Shown: positions 6,438 through 61,856 of the stretch, one piece after another
How positions within the stretch are numbered: the stretch's first letter is position 1
Layout of the letters: each line of letters begins with the position of its first letter
NCBI GenBank assembly: GCA_950295325.1
Contig: OX485806.1
Span: 4,340,001-4,404,000, forward strand
Direction: 5' to 3'
Length of the DNA stretch: 64,000 nucleotides
Source: Polytrichum commune
Lineage: Eukaryota > Streptophyta > Polytrichopsida > Polytrichales > Polytrichaceae
Translations under genes and position numbers: made by a program
Notes under the pieces: generated by a model
What the model saw: the letters and a program-made list of their open reading frames with translations, nothing else
The model's database searches: none
What the model was told of the DNA's origin: nothing

Positions 6438-6677
6438 GTAGTTTCCATTAAAATGAGAGTATGTTAAGCTGGGAAATCGACTCATTTAGGTTGAGTCGAC
6501 CTAAATGAGGACAATATTTTGTCAATTTAGGTTGAGTCGACCTAAATGAGGACAATTATGTTAGTCAATTTAGGTTGAGTCAACCTAAATGAGGACAATA
6601 TGTTGTCAATTTAGGTTGAGTCAACCTAAATGAGTCGATTTCCCAGCTTAACATACTCTCATTTTAATGAAAACTAC
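6438..6677. repeat. 240-bp palindrome containing a four-copy palindromic tandem array
   Basis: The outer arms (about 60 bp, 6438-6500 and 6615-6677) are near-perfect inverted copies sharing AATGAGAGTATGTTAAGCTG and GGGAAATCGACTCATTTAGG. Between and including the arms lie four copies of a unit whose core, ATTTAGGTTGAGTCGACCTAAAT or its TCAACC variant, is itself a palindrome. The cores start at 6484, 6525, 6568 and 6609 (spacing 41, 43 and 41 bp). Single strands could form one long hairpin or four small ones. No flanking target duplication was identified with confidence. Confidence 0.9.
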
Positions 6678-16585: not shown

Positions 16586-16588
16586 CTA

Positions 16589-18307
16589 CAGTAGGTTCCA
16601 AACTATTTTGAATTGTGGACGTGCTCCCAGTTTTATGCTTCAAAAACAATTGCATTTAATTGCATGTAGCCACCTCAATATATATTCGTTTTTCACCAAA
16701 TCAATTGCAACTTGTGAAGCCATCAATGGTCTTTCACCACCACATATTAATCATGAGCAATTGTCAAAAATTAAAAGATTTGGTTGTAATTAGTGAATTG
16801 TGTTGTCAAGAGCTCAAACATGCATACTCCCTTGTAGAGCTCCTCGCGCCACCTCATTGTTTTGATGGCATGTATTCATCGGAAAGCTTAATGTATAAAG
16901 TTCAAGATTACAACATGAAGTGTCATTGCAATGGAGATTGGCTTGCACATATGAGATATTGTGGCTTGAAGTTGTTTTGGAGGTAGTTTGGACAGGAGCA
17001 TAAGAGTTGCTTTTGTTGTTCTGTTGGTGATTGAATATATTGATTTTCAAATTGTGCATTGGGTCTTTGAGAGGTACTATTCCGTACAAAATCTTGAGTG
17101 ATGAAGAAAGGGGTCGCATTGTGGGAATGCGTGAGAGTGGAATAAAGAGTTCAGACATTGCATTTGTATTGAATGTTTCATTGTCAATTATTTCTACTAT
17201 CTTGACAAATTGGAAGGTCCGAGGGAGTGTGAAATCTTTGATATCCCGATGTGGTAGGCATCAGAAGTTGACTAATTGTGATGCTAGAGTGTTGGCACGG
17301 TATGTTAGAGATAATAGAAGACAACCATTGTCATAATTATCAAGCCTATTGAATGTGAGTTGTAACACAATAGGGTCGTACTTAGATGACTTGGGTTTTA
17401 GAAATTGCAATGCACCAAAAAAACCATATCTTAGTGAGATGTACACATTAGATAGGCTTGAATTTTCCCGTGTTCATGAAAGTTGGAGTTTTGAAGATTG
17501 GTGCAATGTGATTTGGTCAGATGAGTCATCATTTGAAATTGGTAAAAATTCAAGGCAAATTAGAGTGTGGTGAAGACTATACGAAAGATATGCCTGGGAT
17601 TGCATAGCTCCAACTTTTAGGAATGGCCATACTTTGGTGATGGTTTGGGGTGCATTTACTGGCTTTGATAAATGCCCTCTTGTTATTATGCCTCCGTACA
17701 AAAGATCAACAAGCAATTTTGTAACCATTGTTTATGAGGCAACATTAAGCAGTTTTTACTTTTACATGATCACCCTTAACAATTGAAACTTATGGAAGAT
17801 GGCGCTCAAGACCACTATAGCTCACTTTCGTTGCAATGGAGACAAGCTTATGGTATGGCAAAACTAATTTGGCATGCAAACTCTCCATATTTGAATCCCA
17901 TAGAATTGTTTTGGAAAATTGTCAAAGATTTGTTACGACATTGTCCTAAACCAAAAAACAAGGAGGAAAGGGCACAAACCATTCAATCAACATGATATAC
18001 AATATCTTTGGAGCAACTCCGAACTTAAATTCAAACTATGCATGATAGAATTCAAGCAGTCTTTTCAGCAAGAGGTGGTAGCACTAGATGATAGATACTA
18101 TATTATAGTTATTATTTTAAATGTATGAATTTCTACTTTTGTAATGCGAATTACTCATATTGTCAAAGTAGACTCTATTATCTTTCCAACACAATTTATG
18201 GTTTGTGAATTGATGGATTTTGAGCCTACAAGAGGTTTTCAAAGTTTATTGTTTTCATTCTCATTCAACTCTAGGGAAAAAATTCAAAATATTTTTGGAC
18301 CCTATTG
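16589..18307 (+). mobile_element. Tc1-like DD34E transposon, complete but degenerate, 1719 bp
   Basis: The left end begins CAGTAGGTTCCAAACTATTT and the complement of the right end begins CAATAGGGTCCAAAAATATT. Each then reaches a shared TTTGAATT-type block, giving imperfect terminal inverted repeats of about 27 bp. Each end abuts a TA dinucleotide (16587-16588 and 18308-18309), the target duplication made by Tc1/mariner elements. About 440 bp lies between the left end and the transposase remnant, and about 215 bp after it. The length and layout are ordinary for Tc1. The transposase is interrupted, so this copy cannot move itself. Confidence 0.85.
17031..18091 (+). pseudogene. Tc1-like DD34E transposase pseudogene
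   Basis: A Tc1 transposase binds its terminal repeats with two helix-turn-helix domains and cuts with a DDE/D catalytic core. The N-terminal part (17031-17333) holds LSDEERGRIVGMRESG, then VLNVSLSIISTIL and KLTNCDARVLARYVRDNRRQPLS, matching the paired HTH region. After a TAA (17334-17336) the same frame continues to NVIWSDESSFEIG, with the first catalytic Asp at 17520-17522. It breaks at TGA 17571-17573 (from Arg CGA), resumes with LYERYAWDCIAPTF and TLVMVWGAFTG, and shifts frame between about 17720 and 17783. It then shows MEDGA (second Asp, 17798-17800) and ANSPYLNPIELFW (Glu, 17903-17905). Exactly 34 residues separate the last two, the Tc1 signature. The C-terminus RIQAVFSARGGSTR is also typical. 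Confidence 0.9.
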
Positions 18308-18309
18308 TA

Positions 18310-23740: not shown

Positions 23741-24399
23741 TTTGAATAAGGCTTGTGTCATTCTAGTCACTTCATGTCGTGAACCTACCGCAATTCTAGT
23801 AGTGATAAGCTCGGGAGATGGACATGACATGAGTCATGGATTTCGTACGACACACATCATGGGTTTCACGCAACACGAACAATTGACCAGGATGACTTTA
23901 CATCTGACACTAAACTTGGAAACTCGAACAATGTTCAACTTGTGTTAGAGTAGCCCACGCACTCATAACGTAGTCATTTTGTAGTTGTATTTTGTAGTAG
24001 TGTGGGAAGGCGGAGCTGGACCAAGTTCGCTTTACAATACGCTTGAGGGACCAACAAAGTAAATGATTATAAGATGGATGTAAAGTCTACATGGATTTCT
24101 ACATGGCATGAAAAGGATCATGTTTCATAGTCATTTGGATTATCACTTGGAGACCATGGCACTCTAAAATCTCACAACCATTGATTCTTATTATTTATTT
24201 ATTTATAATCATGTGTAAAGACCTTGCATGAATAGAAATTCATTGAAATAGCATTTGGGTGAGGGCCCGGTCACATATGACTATACACTACACTTCAAAA
24301 CAAATGACCACACTAAATGATTTTGGAAGTATTTTGGGACGGCCTTTGGATACTTCTTTTGGGCTCTCAAAATGGCTCATGTGTGAAGTGGCCCTAATC

Positions 24400-29508: not shown

Positions 29509-29511
29509 TAA

Positions 29512-30014
29512 GGGCCACTTCACAGACGAGCCAAGAGCCGTGACCATGAAATTGTGAAAGCCCAAAAAATGTGTCCAAAGGCCGTCCCAACACACTTCCA
29601 AAATCATGTAGTGGGGGTCATGGATCCTCAAGTGTAATGTGAAGTCATATGTGACCAGACCCTCAACCAAATGCTATTTCAATGAATTTTTATTCATGCG
29701 GGTCCTCACACATAATAAAATAGAATAAACCAACGGTTGTGAGCGTTTGGAGTGCCATGGTCTCCCAGTTTTGTGTTAGGCCTACCTCCAAGAGGTGGGT
29801 TTTGAAAATATTCCAAGTGACCATCTCATACATGATCCATTTGGTACCATGTAGGAATCCATGTAGACTTTACATCCATCTTGCATTCACATACTATGTT
29901 GGTCCCTCTCAAGCGTAGTGCAAAGCGAACTTGGACCTGGTGCGCCTTTTCCACCAATGAGAGTGCTTGAAATATAACGGTCACAGGCTCTCAGTCTCAT
30001 GTGTGATGTGGCCC
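29512..30014 (-). mobile_element. Harbinger-type MITE of the 500-bp family, full length (503 bp)
   Basis: The ends are GGGCCACTTCACAGACGAGC and, complemented, GGGCCACATCACACATGAGA. TAA flanks both sides (29509-29511 and 30015-30017). Aligned in reverse to 48071-48558, nearly every block matches, including TTTCAATGAATTT, AACCAACGGTTGTGAGCG, CTACCTCCAAGAGGTGG and GTAGGAATCCATGTAGRCTT. It has no coding capacity and probably moved using a PIF/Harbinger transposase like the relic at 8192-8805. Confidence 0.9.
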
Positions 30015-30017
30015 TAA

Positions 30018-31490
30018 GGTCGCCAAAATTCTTAGATAACTTATAATCATCCCAATTAACTTGCATCCTCACAATGGTGTCCATACCAAATTACAAGTTT
30101 CTAAGGGCGTTTTGACCGCTTAAGAGTTCTATTTTTATAGAACTCAAAGAAAAGTAAGATGGGTTTTTGAGTTTCTTCGAATTCATCAAATGCCATGGAT
30201 AGGAAGTTTCGTTATTTTCATCTTACTACACCATCCAATTCCTAATGGTACAGGGGTTTGACCTTATTCGAAAAGAGAGTTACGGAGGATGAAACTTTAG
30301 CCTATAGTTATATGATTGGTACAATAAACATTGTAAGTGACTGTCACAGTCTCATGTTAAGTACATTTTCTTAGAACACCTCAAACATGTCAACTAAAAA
30401 GTGATGTAATTTCAATGGTTTCTGAGTAGATTATTTGGATTTAAACTAGGAAAATTCTTACATGGAGTTGACCAAGTCGTTGGAGAACACCAATTGAATG
30501 GATGTGATATGTAAATCGTTATCAACAAATATGCTTCACAATGTTTTTGCATTCTAGCATTGTAGCCTTCATGTTATTGGGCATGAACATTGTGCATTAA
30601 CAATGTGTTAGTATGGGGGCTAGTATATTGGATTATAGGACAATCATAATACATGAAGCAAGCTAACCTATAAGAAAAACACACATAATAATCAAAGGTC
30701 AAAGGATTTTGGTTTGAAAGGTAGAATTTTGTGTTTTTAAAGTGTTGAGAAAAACTAGGGTCACTCTGAAATAGTAGATCATGCAAAATCACATTTATGA
30801 CACACAAAAACTCATCCAATGCATTGAAGTATCTCTTTAGGAGTTTCTAATACTCATACTATGAATAGGCTAAATGTCATAACTTTCAATACCTCACTAC
30901 TAGGAGTGTTTATGGACAATCATGAACCCACATTAAAAATTAGAAGAAGAAGAAAAATCAAAATCCAACGTCTAGCATTTTAAGGAACACTCCATTACAT
31001 ATAGTCATAATTATGCAATCACTTGATTTTTTTCCCCAACTTTAACTATAAAATTTACCTCTCAAGAATAAAATAGACCCTTCATTTTAATTCATTTAAA
31101 AAATAAAAAATTCTAGTAATTCCATGGGTGCATGTGTGCAAAAGCCTTGGCATTATAATGATTAATATAAACAACCTTCACAATTAGGGTGTAAACATCT
31201 TCTGATAGAGACCAACCCATTTGTCCATAGTGGAAGGGGGTTGGAGTGTTGAATCAAATTGTCTTTCAAGTGTACACAAAAAATAACTATACGCTTTTAC
31301 TATAGGTCTATGTACATTGAGTGAATAAGCAATTTCAAACTTGGTTTTAGCATATTCTTAACAAAGAAAGTCTTGGTCGTGCGCACTCCAAATGCCCTCA
31401 AATTTTTGAATGACTTTGCAGTATAGGATAATACTATATCTATGATACACCCAAACTGCATGCCATAGTAATATCATGTTAAAATGCACA
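30018..31490. other. Intergenic DNA, nothing recognised
   Basis: Short open stretches only; no repeats found at this scale. Confidence 0.5.
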
Positions 31491-41297: not shown

Positions 41298-41700
41298 CGG
41301 CAGCTGCCTCCTTATACTAGCTTAACCTTTGAAGTTCTATCTCACTGCCTCGGCAGCTGCCTCCTTATATCAGCTAACCTTTGAAGTTTTGTCCCACTGC
41401 CTCGGCAACTGCCTCCTTATATCAGCTAACCTTTGAAGTTCTTTCCCACTGCCTCGGCAGCTGCCTCCTTATATTAGTTAACCTTTAAAGTTATGTCCCA
41501 ACTGCCTCGGCAGCTGCTGCCCTATTATATAAGCTAACCATTGAAGTTCTGTCCCACTGCCTCGGCAGCTGTTGCCTTATTAAATCAGCTAACCTTTGAA
41601 GTTCTGTCCCAACTGCCTCGGCAGCTGCCTCCTTATTTCAGCCAACCTTTGAAGTTCTGTCCCACTACCTCGGCAGCTGCTGCCTTATACTAGCTAAATA
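41298..41700 (+). repeat. Minisatellite, eight copies of a 52-56 bp unit
   Basis: The unit is CGGCAGCTGCCTCCTTATAT, then CAGCTAACCTTTGAAGTTCT, then GTCCCACTGCCT. Copies start at 41298, 41351, 41403, 41455, 41508, 41563, 41619 and 41671; the last is truncated. Each holds the palindrome GGCAGCTGCC or a one-base variant. Two internal copies share a longer TGCTGCCYTATTATAT or TTGCC variant, suggesting at least one expansion step. No open frame runs through it. Confidence 0.95.
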
Positions 41701-48066: not shown

Positions 48067-48070
48067 CTTA

Positions 48071-48558
48071 GGGCCACTTCACACACGAGACTGAGAGCCC
48101 GTGACCGTTACACTTCAAGCACTCTCATTGGCGGAAAAGGCGGAGCTGCTCTAAGTTCGTTTCACACCACGCTTGAGGGACCAACGGAGTATGTGAATGC
48201 AAGATGGATGTAAAGCCTACATGGATTCCTACATGACACCAAATGGATCATGTTTCATGGTCACTTGGATTATTTTCAAAAACCACCTCTTGGAGGTAGG
48301 CCTATCACCAAACCGGGAGACCATGACACTCCGAACGCTCACAACCGTTGGTTTATTCTATTCATCATGTCTGAGGACCCGCATGAAGAGAAATTCATTG
48401 AAATAGTATTTGGTTGAGGGCCCGGTCACATACGGCTTCACACTACACTTGAGGATCTGTGACCACACTACACGATTTTGGAGGTGTCTCGGGACGGCCT
48501 TTGGGCTCTCACAATTTCATGGTCACAGCTCTTGGCTCGTGTGTGAGCCAAGTGGCCC
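48071..48558 (+). mobile_element. Harbinger-type MITE of the 500-bp family, full length (488 bp)
   Basis: Left end GGGCCACTTCACACACGAGA; complemented right end GGGCCACTTGGCTCACACAC, which carries a small insertion relative to the left. TTA flanks both sides (48068-48070 and 48559-48561). The body aligns end to end with the reverse of 29512-30014. The best-preserved copy together with 29512-30014; non-coding. Confidence 0.9.
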
Positions 48559-48564
48559 TTAATT

Positions 48565-58400: not shown

Positions 58401-59505
58401 ATCGAGTCTGCAATTTGTCTTATCACGGAGAATTAACGGCTCGACATTGTACGACTAATGGCTCGTCACTATCTTACATGTACAAATTACTGTAGTCTTC
58501 TCATCAGTTTCTGCCTTCACACAAGTCGGCCTATTAGCAGCACAGATGTATATCGTGACACAGATAGACGGAAATACCACCGGACCCCAGTAGGTGGGAA
58601 GCTTTCAACAGCTTTTCTTGTCAGCTGAACCAAACTTCCAGCAGCCAGCTGTTGGGTAGTAAGGTGGGTTTGTAAGGTGTGAAGGCTGGATTATGGCAGG
58701 GATGGCAGTTCCATTTGTTCAGTCCAATGAAACAGATCCAAGGCATGATGGTACAACTGTCCCTTTAACTACATTCTGCGTATTCAAGTTCCATTCTACT
58801 TGCTGGAGTTTACCTATCCAGGTCAAACAATTGGGCACCTACATAGATATGACAGATATTGACAGTTACAATATGTGATGGGTCACTCAAAGTTAGCTTC
58901 TTTGTCCTTACATCGTTGGACACCATAGGAACACAAACTATTGATCTTAAGCCTATGCAAGACAGACTGACAGCGGAACACCAACCAGAAAAAATGAGCT
59001 TTTGAAGAACAAGGTTATGTGCCTCTAAGAATATAATCATCATACAAGCTTGTATGCACAAAAAGAAGTTGCACCTGATGACAGAGCACGCGTTATCTAT
59101 GAGTAAAAGCCATTTTTTGGACAGATAATCACTCCCACAATCCTGTCATCATGCTTGCACATTAAAATTTTCAAGTGTTTGATGATGAGCCATTTGAGCT
59201 TCTGGAGACAGAGGCATGGCTAAAAATAAATCCCATAAATGTGGAGTGCACCATCCTAACCCACACAGTGAATGTACAATTGCTACAGCCTCAAGAAGTC
59301 AGGCATTTAACAAGCAACGGCCTTGTCAGATCAAACATGTAGACATTTACACCTCTGGTGTTTGTCTCTTTATACATAATACAATGCCAATCAAAGCACG
59401 AGTTGGCAAATCACGTATACCTCTCTGACCTGAGAACTTGCAGGGCTCTGCAGCTTAATGAGCAAGGGAGGATTTGAAAGAATGTGAAGAGGAGTGTGAA
59501 ATCTC
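55410..59505. other. Less AT-rich DNA, possible transcribed region, no gene resolved
   Basis: Compared with the left of the window, this segment has higher GC and fewer repeats. An exon-like block at about 55967-56153 is bounded by ACCAG and AAAGGTATGC and stays open in one frame (KEDFWRWKNLILEVMSECGD). Another open block at 57578-57796 is hydrophobic and is followed by AATAAA near 57816. I recognise no protein family in either, so I cannot assemble a gene model. Confidence 0.3.
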
Positions 59506-59511
59506 TGCTCT

Positions 59512-59960
59512 TCAGGTACTAATTGTTTTTGATGTAAAGTGTGTTGGGTGATTTCGTGCAGAAAAATTGTGACGATGGTGATGGATATTTGCTGGCTGGC
59601 TAGTTATGAGGGATTTTATGGAGGCAGGGACCTGGAGTAGCGGCGGCGTCCGTGGAGGCCCGCCGAACTTGATGGCCGGGATCTTCCTGGCGATGGCCTT
59701 CCACACCATGTCCACAACATCATCTGGCAACGCAGGATGCTGGACTGAAATTGGCGGGCCACTTGCTGCAATTTCTCCAACATCCGTGTCCGCTTCTGGC
59801 TGTCGATGCTGCGCAGCAGGTTGATGGCGAAGCCGGGCCAGACATCGTCCGAGGAGTCTGATGAAGACGCAGAACTAAGTGAGTCCAGAAATTCCTCGAA
59901 AGCAGCCCCAAAGCAGCTCGATGTCGTCGCTTATGACCACGTGCGGGCTCGCAGTACCTG
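59512..59960 (-). pseudogene. Partial tandem copy of the GT47 gene 3' end
   Basis: The last 110 or so codons and the start of the 3' flank of the GT47 gene (about 60080-60440) are repeated here at high similarity. Matching blocks include the peptide WKAIARKIPAIKF and the DNA words TGATGGCCGGGATCTTCCTGG and CTGTCGATGCTGCGCA. The reading frame remains open only from about 59730 to the stop at 59512. Upstream, single-base differences break the frame through the part matching FINSSDALKPG and ISDDIELPYEDF. The exostosin core and the membrane anchor are absent. It is a truncated, non-functional duplicate lying in direct orientation just downstream of the intact gene. Confidence 0.85.
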
Positions 59961-60127
59961 ACGTAGCCAGGTTGATGATTAAGGATTTGAAACAATTTTA
60001 AGAGGGGGAGTGAAGAATCCTTCTTGCAGCTACAAATGTTTTTTTTGAAGCGTATTGTGTTGGTTCGTACGGAAACACTGTGGCGATGGAGACGGAGATG
60101 GAGATTTGCAGGCAGGCTAGGAGGTTG

Positions 60128-61678
60128 TTATGAGGGTTTAAGCGACGACCGGGACCTGGAGTAGCGGCGGTGTCTGTGGAGGGCGAACTTGATGGCCGGG
60201 ATCTTCCTGGCAATGGCCTTCCACACCATGTTGACAGCATCATCTGGCAAAGTAGGACTTTGGTACTGAAAGTGGCGGTCCACTTGCTGCAATTTTTCCC
60301 ACATTCGCGTCCACTCCCGGCTGTCGATGCTGCGCAACAGGTTGATAACAAACCCGGGCTTGAGCGCGTCGGAGGAGTTAATGAAAACACAGAAGTCGGT
60401 GTAGTCCAGGAAATCCTCGTAAGGGAGCTCGATGTCATCGCTGATGACCACAGGCACACAGTGGCTGACGATGGAGTCAAACAGGCGGTTGGAGCTCGGC
60501 GTGTCACCCGCCAGGTTGAGGCAGAACTTGGAGAACCGCATGCCACCGGTTGCGCTCCGAAAGCCTTCGCTGCCGGTGTTTCCTGTGACAAAGTGCACAC
60601 CATGCTCGTTCTTGAGCATCTCGTGGAGCTGCTGACGAATGACGCCTCCCTCCTTGCGAATGATGGCTCCCTGGAAGAACAGCAGCATAGTGCGAACCTC
60701 GAAGGAGTTGGTGTCTTGCTCGAAGGTGGGGATAACATGCTTGTAGGGCGCCACAACATCCTTTTGAATGTTAGCCACTTCCTTGCCATACCTGCCGAAA
60801 TCTGCCACCACGAACATCGCATTGCGGAGCTCCTCCCGCATCACATGCATGCTGTTGGGATGGTGGATGACGATGACGTGGTCTGAGCCTCCGGAAGCTC
60901 GCCACGCAGCCTGCGTCTTCAGAAACTTCACCAGCTTCACCTGGAGCACTTCGTTCCTGTCCGCTGCCTTAACCTGCTGCTCACCTGGCTTGTTATTCTT
61001 GTTGTAGCTCAGAGAAGCAAAGAACGGCACAAACATCAGATCGGCGTCCTCCCACCTGTCCACTCTGAAAACCACGCACGGTGCACTTCGATCACTCATG
61101 GTGGAGGTGAGAAGGTCGGAGGTGAGCCAGTACTCTGGGCTATGCTGCTGGTACAAGCCCCCGGGGTATGGTGGGATTGCGGAGACATTCCTTGGCCAGA
61201 TCTCGCCCTTGCTGGGTTTAAACTCTGTAATCATCCCGTAGTGAAACTCAGCTGCCAGATCGTACATAAAAATTCGTAATCTTGCGGACTGGGCGTCGCA
61301 TCCGGGAGGTGAAGTACTTGATCGACCACCAGGTTGTTGGAGCTCCTGCTGGATCACATTATTTTTGTCGACAGTATCCGACTTTGACATGGCCGAAGAA
61401 GGGTTTAATTCGGGGACAAGTTTTTCGGAGTGCACCAGGTCGAGGTAAGGGATGTAGGCCACTGTTGCGAGCTTGTTGTCAAGGTTTAATCCGTGACTGT
61501 GTTGCAGAAAGAATCCTGAGAGAGCACAGATAGAGAGAATCATGGCGACGGTGGCCAGCACGTATCCCTTCCGCACCCAATCTTCGTAGCTTCGAGTAGG
61601 TGGTTTAATCCCTTTGCTCGAAACCTGCTCATCGTTGTCCTCACTCGACATTCTGCCGGCTCTAGATGACCTCCACAT
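60128..61678 (-). CDS. GT47 exostosin-family glycosyltransferase, ARAD-like
   Basis: Probable Golgi type II membrane glycosyltransferase of family GT47. It most resembles the Arabidopsis ARAD1/ARAD2 group, which is implicated in pectic arabinan synthesis; the substrate here is inferred only. Numbering residues from 61723: cytoplasmic tail, then a single membrane anchor at about 54-73 (YVLATVAMILSICALSGFFL), a Ser/Pro-rich stem, and the exostosin domain from about 149 (RLRIFMYDL) to 465. The strongest motif is 400-445, containing NLAGDTPSSNRLFDSIVSHC, VPVVISDDIELP and YEDFLDYTDFCVF. The C-terminus has DAVNMVWKAIARKIP as in ARAD proteins. It is a single uninterrupted frame with no intron. The start is chosen at 61678 (MWRSSRAG); 61723, 61696 and 61651 are alternatives. 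Coding GC is far above the left of the window. Confidence 0.93.
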   Translation of the reverse strand: MWRSSRAGRMSSEDNDEQVSSKGIKPPTRSYEDWVRKGYVLATVAMILSICALSGFFLQHSHGLNLDNKLATVAYIPYLDLVHSEKLVPELNPSSAMSKSDTVDKNNVIQQELQQPGGRSSTSPPGCDAQSARLRIFMYDLAAEFHYGMITEFKPSKGEIWPRNVSAIPPYPGGLYQQHSPEYWLTSDLLTSTMSDRSAPCVVFRVDRWEDADLMFVPFFASLSYNKNNKPGEQQVKAADRNEVLQVKLVKFLKTQAAWRASGGSDHVIVIHHPNSMHVMREELRNAMFVVADFGRYGKEVANIQKDVVAPYKHVIPTFEQDTNSFEVRTMLLFFQGAIIRKEGGVIRQQLHEMLKNEHGVHFVTGNTGSEGFRSATGGMRFSKFCLNLAGDTPSSNRLFDSIVSHCVPVVISDDIELPYEDFLDYTDFCVFINSSDALKPGFVINLLRSIDSREWTRMWEKLQQVDRHFQYQSPTLPDDAVNMVWKAIARKIPAIKFALHRHRRYSRSRSSLKPS

Positions 61679-61856
61679 CGTCCTTAATGTGATCATGATT
61701 TCACAAACAAAAAAATTTATCAATCCAATTTCGGTACCATGGCCCAGAAATCTCAGAAAGGATCAATTGCTTGCTTGCTTGCAGCTGGCACGAGAATTAG
61801 GTTGCGATGTTGACCATTGTTCTCGTGGGATACTGCTGCAAGCACTCTTGGAGCAC

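Follow-up and report, generated by a model that had tools for sequence, protein, structure and literature searches.

A 1,719-bp segment of the window, the whole 64-kb stretch of DNA that was analysed, is very probably a dead full-length transposon of the Tc1 family (DD34E type) that lies at a TA site of a plant nuclear genome and has decayed in CHG-methylated chromatin. The anatomy of the element can be read directly. It occupies positions 16589–18307 on the plus strand and is bounded by a TA target dinucleotide on the left (16587–16588) and on the right (18308–18309), with matching ends and the remnant of a transposase within. The left terminal inverted repeat (16589–16614, plus strand) starts CAGTAGG and the right one (18281–18307, minus strand) starts CAATAGGG. 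Specifically, when the first 26 nt are aligned with the reverse complement of the last 27 nt, 23 of the 27 columns are identical, three are mismatches and one is a gap. The position, TA sites and matching repeats given by the original prediction are thus borne out.

Matching of the ends was compared with chance. When TA-bounded end pairs were drawn at random from the window 200,000 times, 4 draws reached the score of the terminal repeats; pairs less than 100 bp apart were skipped yet counted in the total. A test on 250-nt ends was weak, its score of 70 comparing with a maximum of 66 among 300 shuffles. Of 9,282 TA-bounded pairs enclosing the transposase, the top scorer (38) lies 10 and 4 bases further out than the ends adopted here, 16589/18307, which score 36, as does one other pair. 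Because the shifted pair scores higher, the exact borders depend also on the CAGT terminus. The terminal tetranucleotide is CAGT on the left and CAAT on the right, so that the right end is one base off the CAGT type. On the plus strand the difference at 18304–18307 is of the C-to-T type in a CTG (CHG) context. A CAAT right end is what deamination in such a context would give.

The transposase remnant (17073–18088, plus strand) comprises about 338 codons counted from a start at 17073 that we chose ourselves. For the searches its open pieces were used as such and were also joined into a read-through protein in which X replaces every stop and marks the frame junction. The first open piece (17031–17333, plus strand) contains a helix-turn-helix (HTH) that matches the Pfam families PAX (E 6.7e-6) and HTH_Tnp_Tc3_1 (2.5e-5) above gathering and HTH_SB (6.4e-5) below it. 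The second (17337–17570, plus strand) carries another HTH, HTH_Tnp_Tc3_2 (1.6e-7), above gathering by 0.4 bits, together with the WSDES motif. The piece at 17780–17992 (plus strand) matches DDE_3 at 2.4e-4, which is below gathering and stays below it in the read-through protein; MEDGA and NPIE are found here. The middle piece of the catalytic domain (17574–17783, plus strand) matched no Pfam family when searched alone and is recognised by its alignment, inside the read-through protein, with the transposase of Sleeping Beauty SB100X (PDB chain 5cr4). SB100X is an active transposase, and residues 6–225 of its 230-residue chain align with residues 113–335 of the read-through protein (223 residues, E 4.6e-14). 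Unlike the element, it was reconstructed from fish (PMC4054914).

The motifs WSDES, MEDGA and NPIE start at 17514, 17792 and 17894, respectively, which places the codons of the two catalytic aspartates at 17520–17522 and 17798–17800 and the codon of the glutamate at 17903–17905. The second Asp and the Glu are separated by 34 residues, i.e. the triad is DD34E. With the HTH matches, the located motifs and the counted spacing, the paired HTH remnants and the WSDES, MEDGA and LNPIE blocks described in the original prediction are now confirmed. The same evidence, together with the SB100X match and the TA-bounded inverted repeats, upholds the assignment to Tc1-type DD34E elements. The name IS630 was rejected for the family, the NCBIfam model NF033545 scoring 33.8 bits where its cut-off is 100. 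Membership of the plant DD39D family was rejected as well, the spacing being 34 rather than 39 and the third residue Glu rather than Asp.

The copy is dead. There are five in-frame stops (17334, 17571, 17777, 17993 and 18026), a frame change near 17757–17765 and no in-frame ATG before the first HTH; the intact transposase reading frame of an active transposon is absent. The element had been described as complete, and this is true of its structure but not of its coding frame, which is broken, nor strictly of its right end, which reads CAAT. Five stops correspond to roughly 0.08 substitutions per site if equal rates are assumed, a crude value from which no date is claimed. By analogy with its family, a live version of the element would have moved by excision and reinsertion, carried out by its own DDE-type transposase with paired HTH motifs, which would have bound the terminal repeats. 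We suppose that it inserted at a TA site of a plant nuclear genome and that later decay in CHG-methylated chromatin may have gone on until its CAG/CTG content equalled that of the surrounding DNA.

The element and its flanks carry the same scar in base composition. Relative to the dinucleotides that compose it, CAG/CTG is the lowest trinucleotide pair in both, and its depletion, within the element as well as the flanks, is 2- to 4-fold, whereas CCG is affected far less. Specifically, CAG+CTG observed/expected counts are 12/43.7 for the element, 109/264.9 for the left and 56/239.8 for the right 10-kb flank, and 381/1216.3 over 1–48 kb with the element included. The corresponding counts of CCG are 8/7.6, 61/66.0, 34/52.8 and 260/292.7, the right flank being partly depleted (ratio 0.64). 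Four control pairs (AGC, GAC, ACG and TGC) have ratios of 0.85 to 1.13 in the same stretches. There is no depletion of CAG/CTG at or near the gene described below: the counts are 70/69.9 in its ORF, 116/117.4 at 56.0–59.4 kb and 70/74.8 at 61.8–64 kb. Among 143 overlapping 1,719-bp segments of the 1–48 kb region, those touching the element being excluded, 53% have a lower CAG/CTG value than the element. By this measure the element is indistinguishable from its surroundings and hence an old resident. Measured per 4 kb, the CAG/CTG ratio runs from about 0.2–0.5 (1–48 kb) through about 0.6 (48–56 kb) to about 1.0 (56–64 kb), a gradient that looks like a heterochromatin-to-gene boundary in base composition.

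We infer that the CAG/CTG depletion is a trace of plant CHG methylation. The cited passages on plant methylation contexts mention no such depletion of CAG/CTG. It is important to note that a methylation difference of 20–50% alone would leave more CCG loss than most of the stretches show. The scar is common to both sides of the element borders and in this way supports a plant host. Repeat-induced point mutation (RIP) of fungi prefers CpA and would lower it. Observed/expected ratios of this dinucleotide are 1.55 within the element and 1.34 in its flanks, so there is no depletion, which speaks against RIP. That the flanking DNA should be plant, as the original prediction asked to be confirmed, is accordingly supported by depletion across the borders, although the controls of the argument are internal ones, all from within the window.

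The only confident gene of the window is a minus-strand ORF for a GT47 exostosin (60131–61762, Pfam E 2.5e-59), found in a Pfam scan of the 150 longest of the 182 stop-to-stop frames of at least 65 aa. GT47 proteins are found in animals too, and for this reason the gene by itself is weak evidence for a plant host, with which it agrees; we take the ORF to resemble plant GT47 proteins. The protein had no match in the PDB at 0.01. Three other matches of the scan, DDE_Tnp_4 (0.0035), AFT (0.0062) and DUF3377 (0.0079), were set aside, since 150 queries at E 0.01 are expected to give 1.5 chance matches. No tRNA was found in the window with bacterial settings, and no Rfam family matched at gathering scores. 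Several repeats were observed in the window. The stretch with the 3′ end of the GT47 ORF and adjacent downstream sequence is duplicated in tandem (59469–59940 and 59982–60451, 76.6% identical). Three copies of a dispersed repeat, up to about 500 bp long (24007–24373, 29509–30018 and 48067–48561), are 72–86% identical, one of them being inverted relative to the others. At 41298–41697 there is a tandem array of 7.5 copies of a 52-bp unit, the consensus of which contains the palindrome GGCAGCTGCC, and at 6438–6677 tandem units of 41 bp (6484–6634, 3.6 copies) lie within two 110-nt inverted arms that are 85% complementary and 20 nt apart.

A second copy of the element within the window was not found by blastn, the only other match being 44 nt long (75%, E 0.092). 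The terminal 14-mer with up to two mismatches has six matches in the window against 2.36 expected, a number reached in 3 of 100 shuffles; they comprise both ends of the element itself and four further sites, each with two mismatches. Relatives were also sought outside the window. Protein patterns matched 16, 11 and 3 stretches of viral contigs, none of which was confirmed, and DNA patterns matched none; in prokaryote genome contigs there were 30 pattern matches, again none confirmed. Scans of this type depend on exact matches to short peptides and can detect only close relatives. The read-through protein had no tblastn match at 1e-5 in plasmids and phages, and the element had no blastn match in phages. 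These misses carry no weight on origin because the plasmid, phage, viral and prokaryote collections are, by their descriptions, without plant or fungal genomes.

A DD34E Tc1 element in a plant had seemed surprising and possibly the sign of a poorly described lineage. This surprise falls away, since DD34E Tc1-like elements of a moss (PpTc1 and PpTc2) and of nine angiosperms were described by Liu and Yang (2014, PMC4054914), and a 2020 paper proposed that the moss elements had been transferred from fungi (PMC7466625). The element is an ordinary further example, both its kind and the idea of fungal transfer being already published. Among the matches listed, a weak check of openly licensed PMC papers gave no further titles on plant DD34E elements, and the portions seen of PMC9033089 and PMC12448838 held nothing further on them.

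Compared by published description, PpTc1 (ABEU01007491, 1,584 bp) and PpTc2 (ABEU01006878, 1,709 bp) of Physcomitrium patens resemble the element in the DD34E triad, the TA sites, the two HTH motifs and the CAGT-type ends, seen here at the left end; PpTc2 is also close to it in length (1,709 against 1,719 bp). Each of them has an ORF of 338 aa, which is not independent evidence beside our count of about 338 codons, as the start at 17073 was self-chosen. Unlike the present dead copy with recognisable repeats of 26 and 27 nt, they have 33-bp terminal inverted repeats and exist as intact copies, those of PpTc1 being transcribed (PMC4054914). The angiosperm elements, OsTc1, BnTc and HvTc among them, are likewise DD34E. 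The majority of their copies are fragmented and most are single-copy (PMC4054914, Table 1), with the exception of a complete element with intact ends in indica rice; here both ends are kept, and within a 64-kb sequence a single composition scar runs across the borders. The build of the element suggests kinship with these published plant elements. PlantMar, as the DD39D plant family is named in PMC7325037, belongs to the same Tc1/mariner superfamily and differs in its triad from the 34 residues and Glu found here.

How the element reached the genome can be answered only tentatively. Acquisition from a fungus by horizontal transfer, the origin suggested for PpTc1 and PpTc2, is a possibility that we would put at below even chances. 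The wording of the catalytic motifs was described as fungus-like in the original prediction, the distribution of these elements among plants is patchy (PMC4054914), and in PMC7466625 the moss elements cluster with those of fungi and no significant match was found in Marchantia, Arabidopsis or rice. The last point is at odds with the complete element of indica rice in PMC4054914, so that the two papers disagree over rice. Moreover, the only named sequence match of the catalytic domain is to the fish-derived transposase in the PDB, which is silent on origin, and the composition of the element equals that of the surrounding DNA; any transfer must therefore be old. A narrower version, in which a Tc1 lineage of fungal origin would have entered this plant lineage long ago by a transfer separate from those proposed for P. 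patens and the copy then have been eroded by CHG methylation until it matched its surroundings, seems to us improbable.

Signs of long residence speak for vertical descent within plants, from an old Tc1 lineage since lost by most of them, and the published plant elements are similarly built (PMC4054914). Against this, those elements occur patchily, and PpTc1 belongs to a different clade from PpTc2 (PMC4054914); we regard such descent, too, as possible at below even chances. Fungal contamination, with the element resident in a fungal contig, is extremely unlikely. Tc1 elements do occur in fungi (PMC4054914). The depletion of CAG/CTG argues against such contamination and for long residence: with CCG largely spared, it fits published descriptions of plant methylation contexts, and it is found inside the element and in both flanks. 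CpA, moreover, is not lowered as RIP would lower it. A dead Tc1-type element that decayed within plant chromatin is the reading we prefer.

The importance of the finding is modest. For the mostly fragmented, single-copy Tc1 elements of angiosperms (PMC4054914) we infer that contamination is hard to exclude. A depletion common to an element and its flanks is a sequence-only test of long residence, which could be tried on other plant copies. The patchy map of Tc1 elements in plants bears on the transfer of transposons from fungi to plants.
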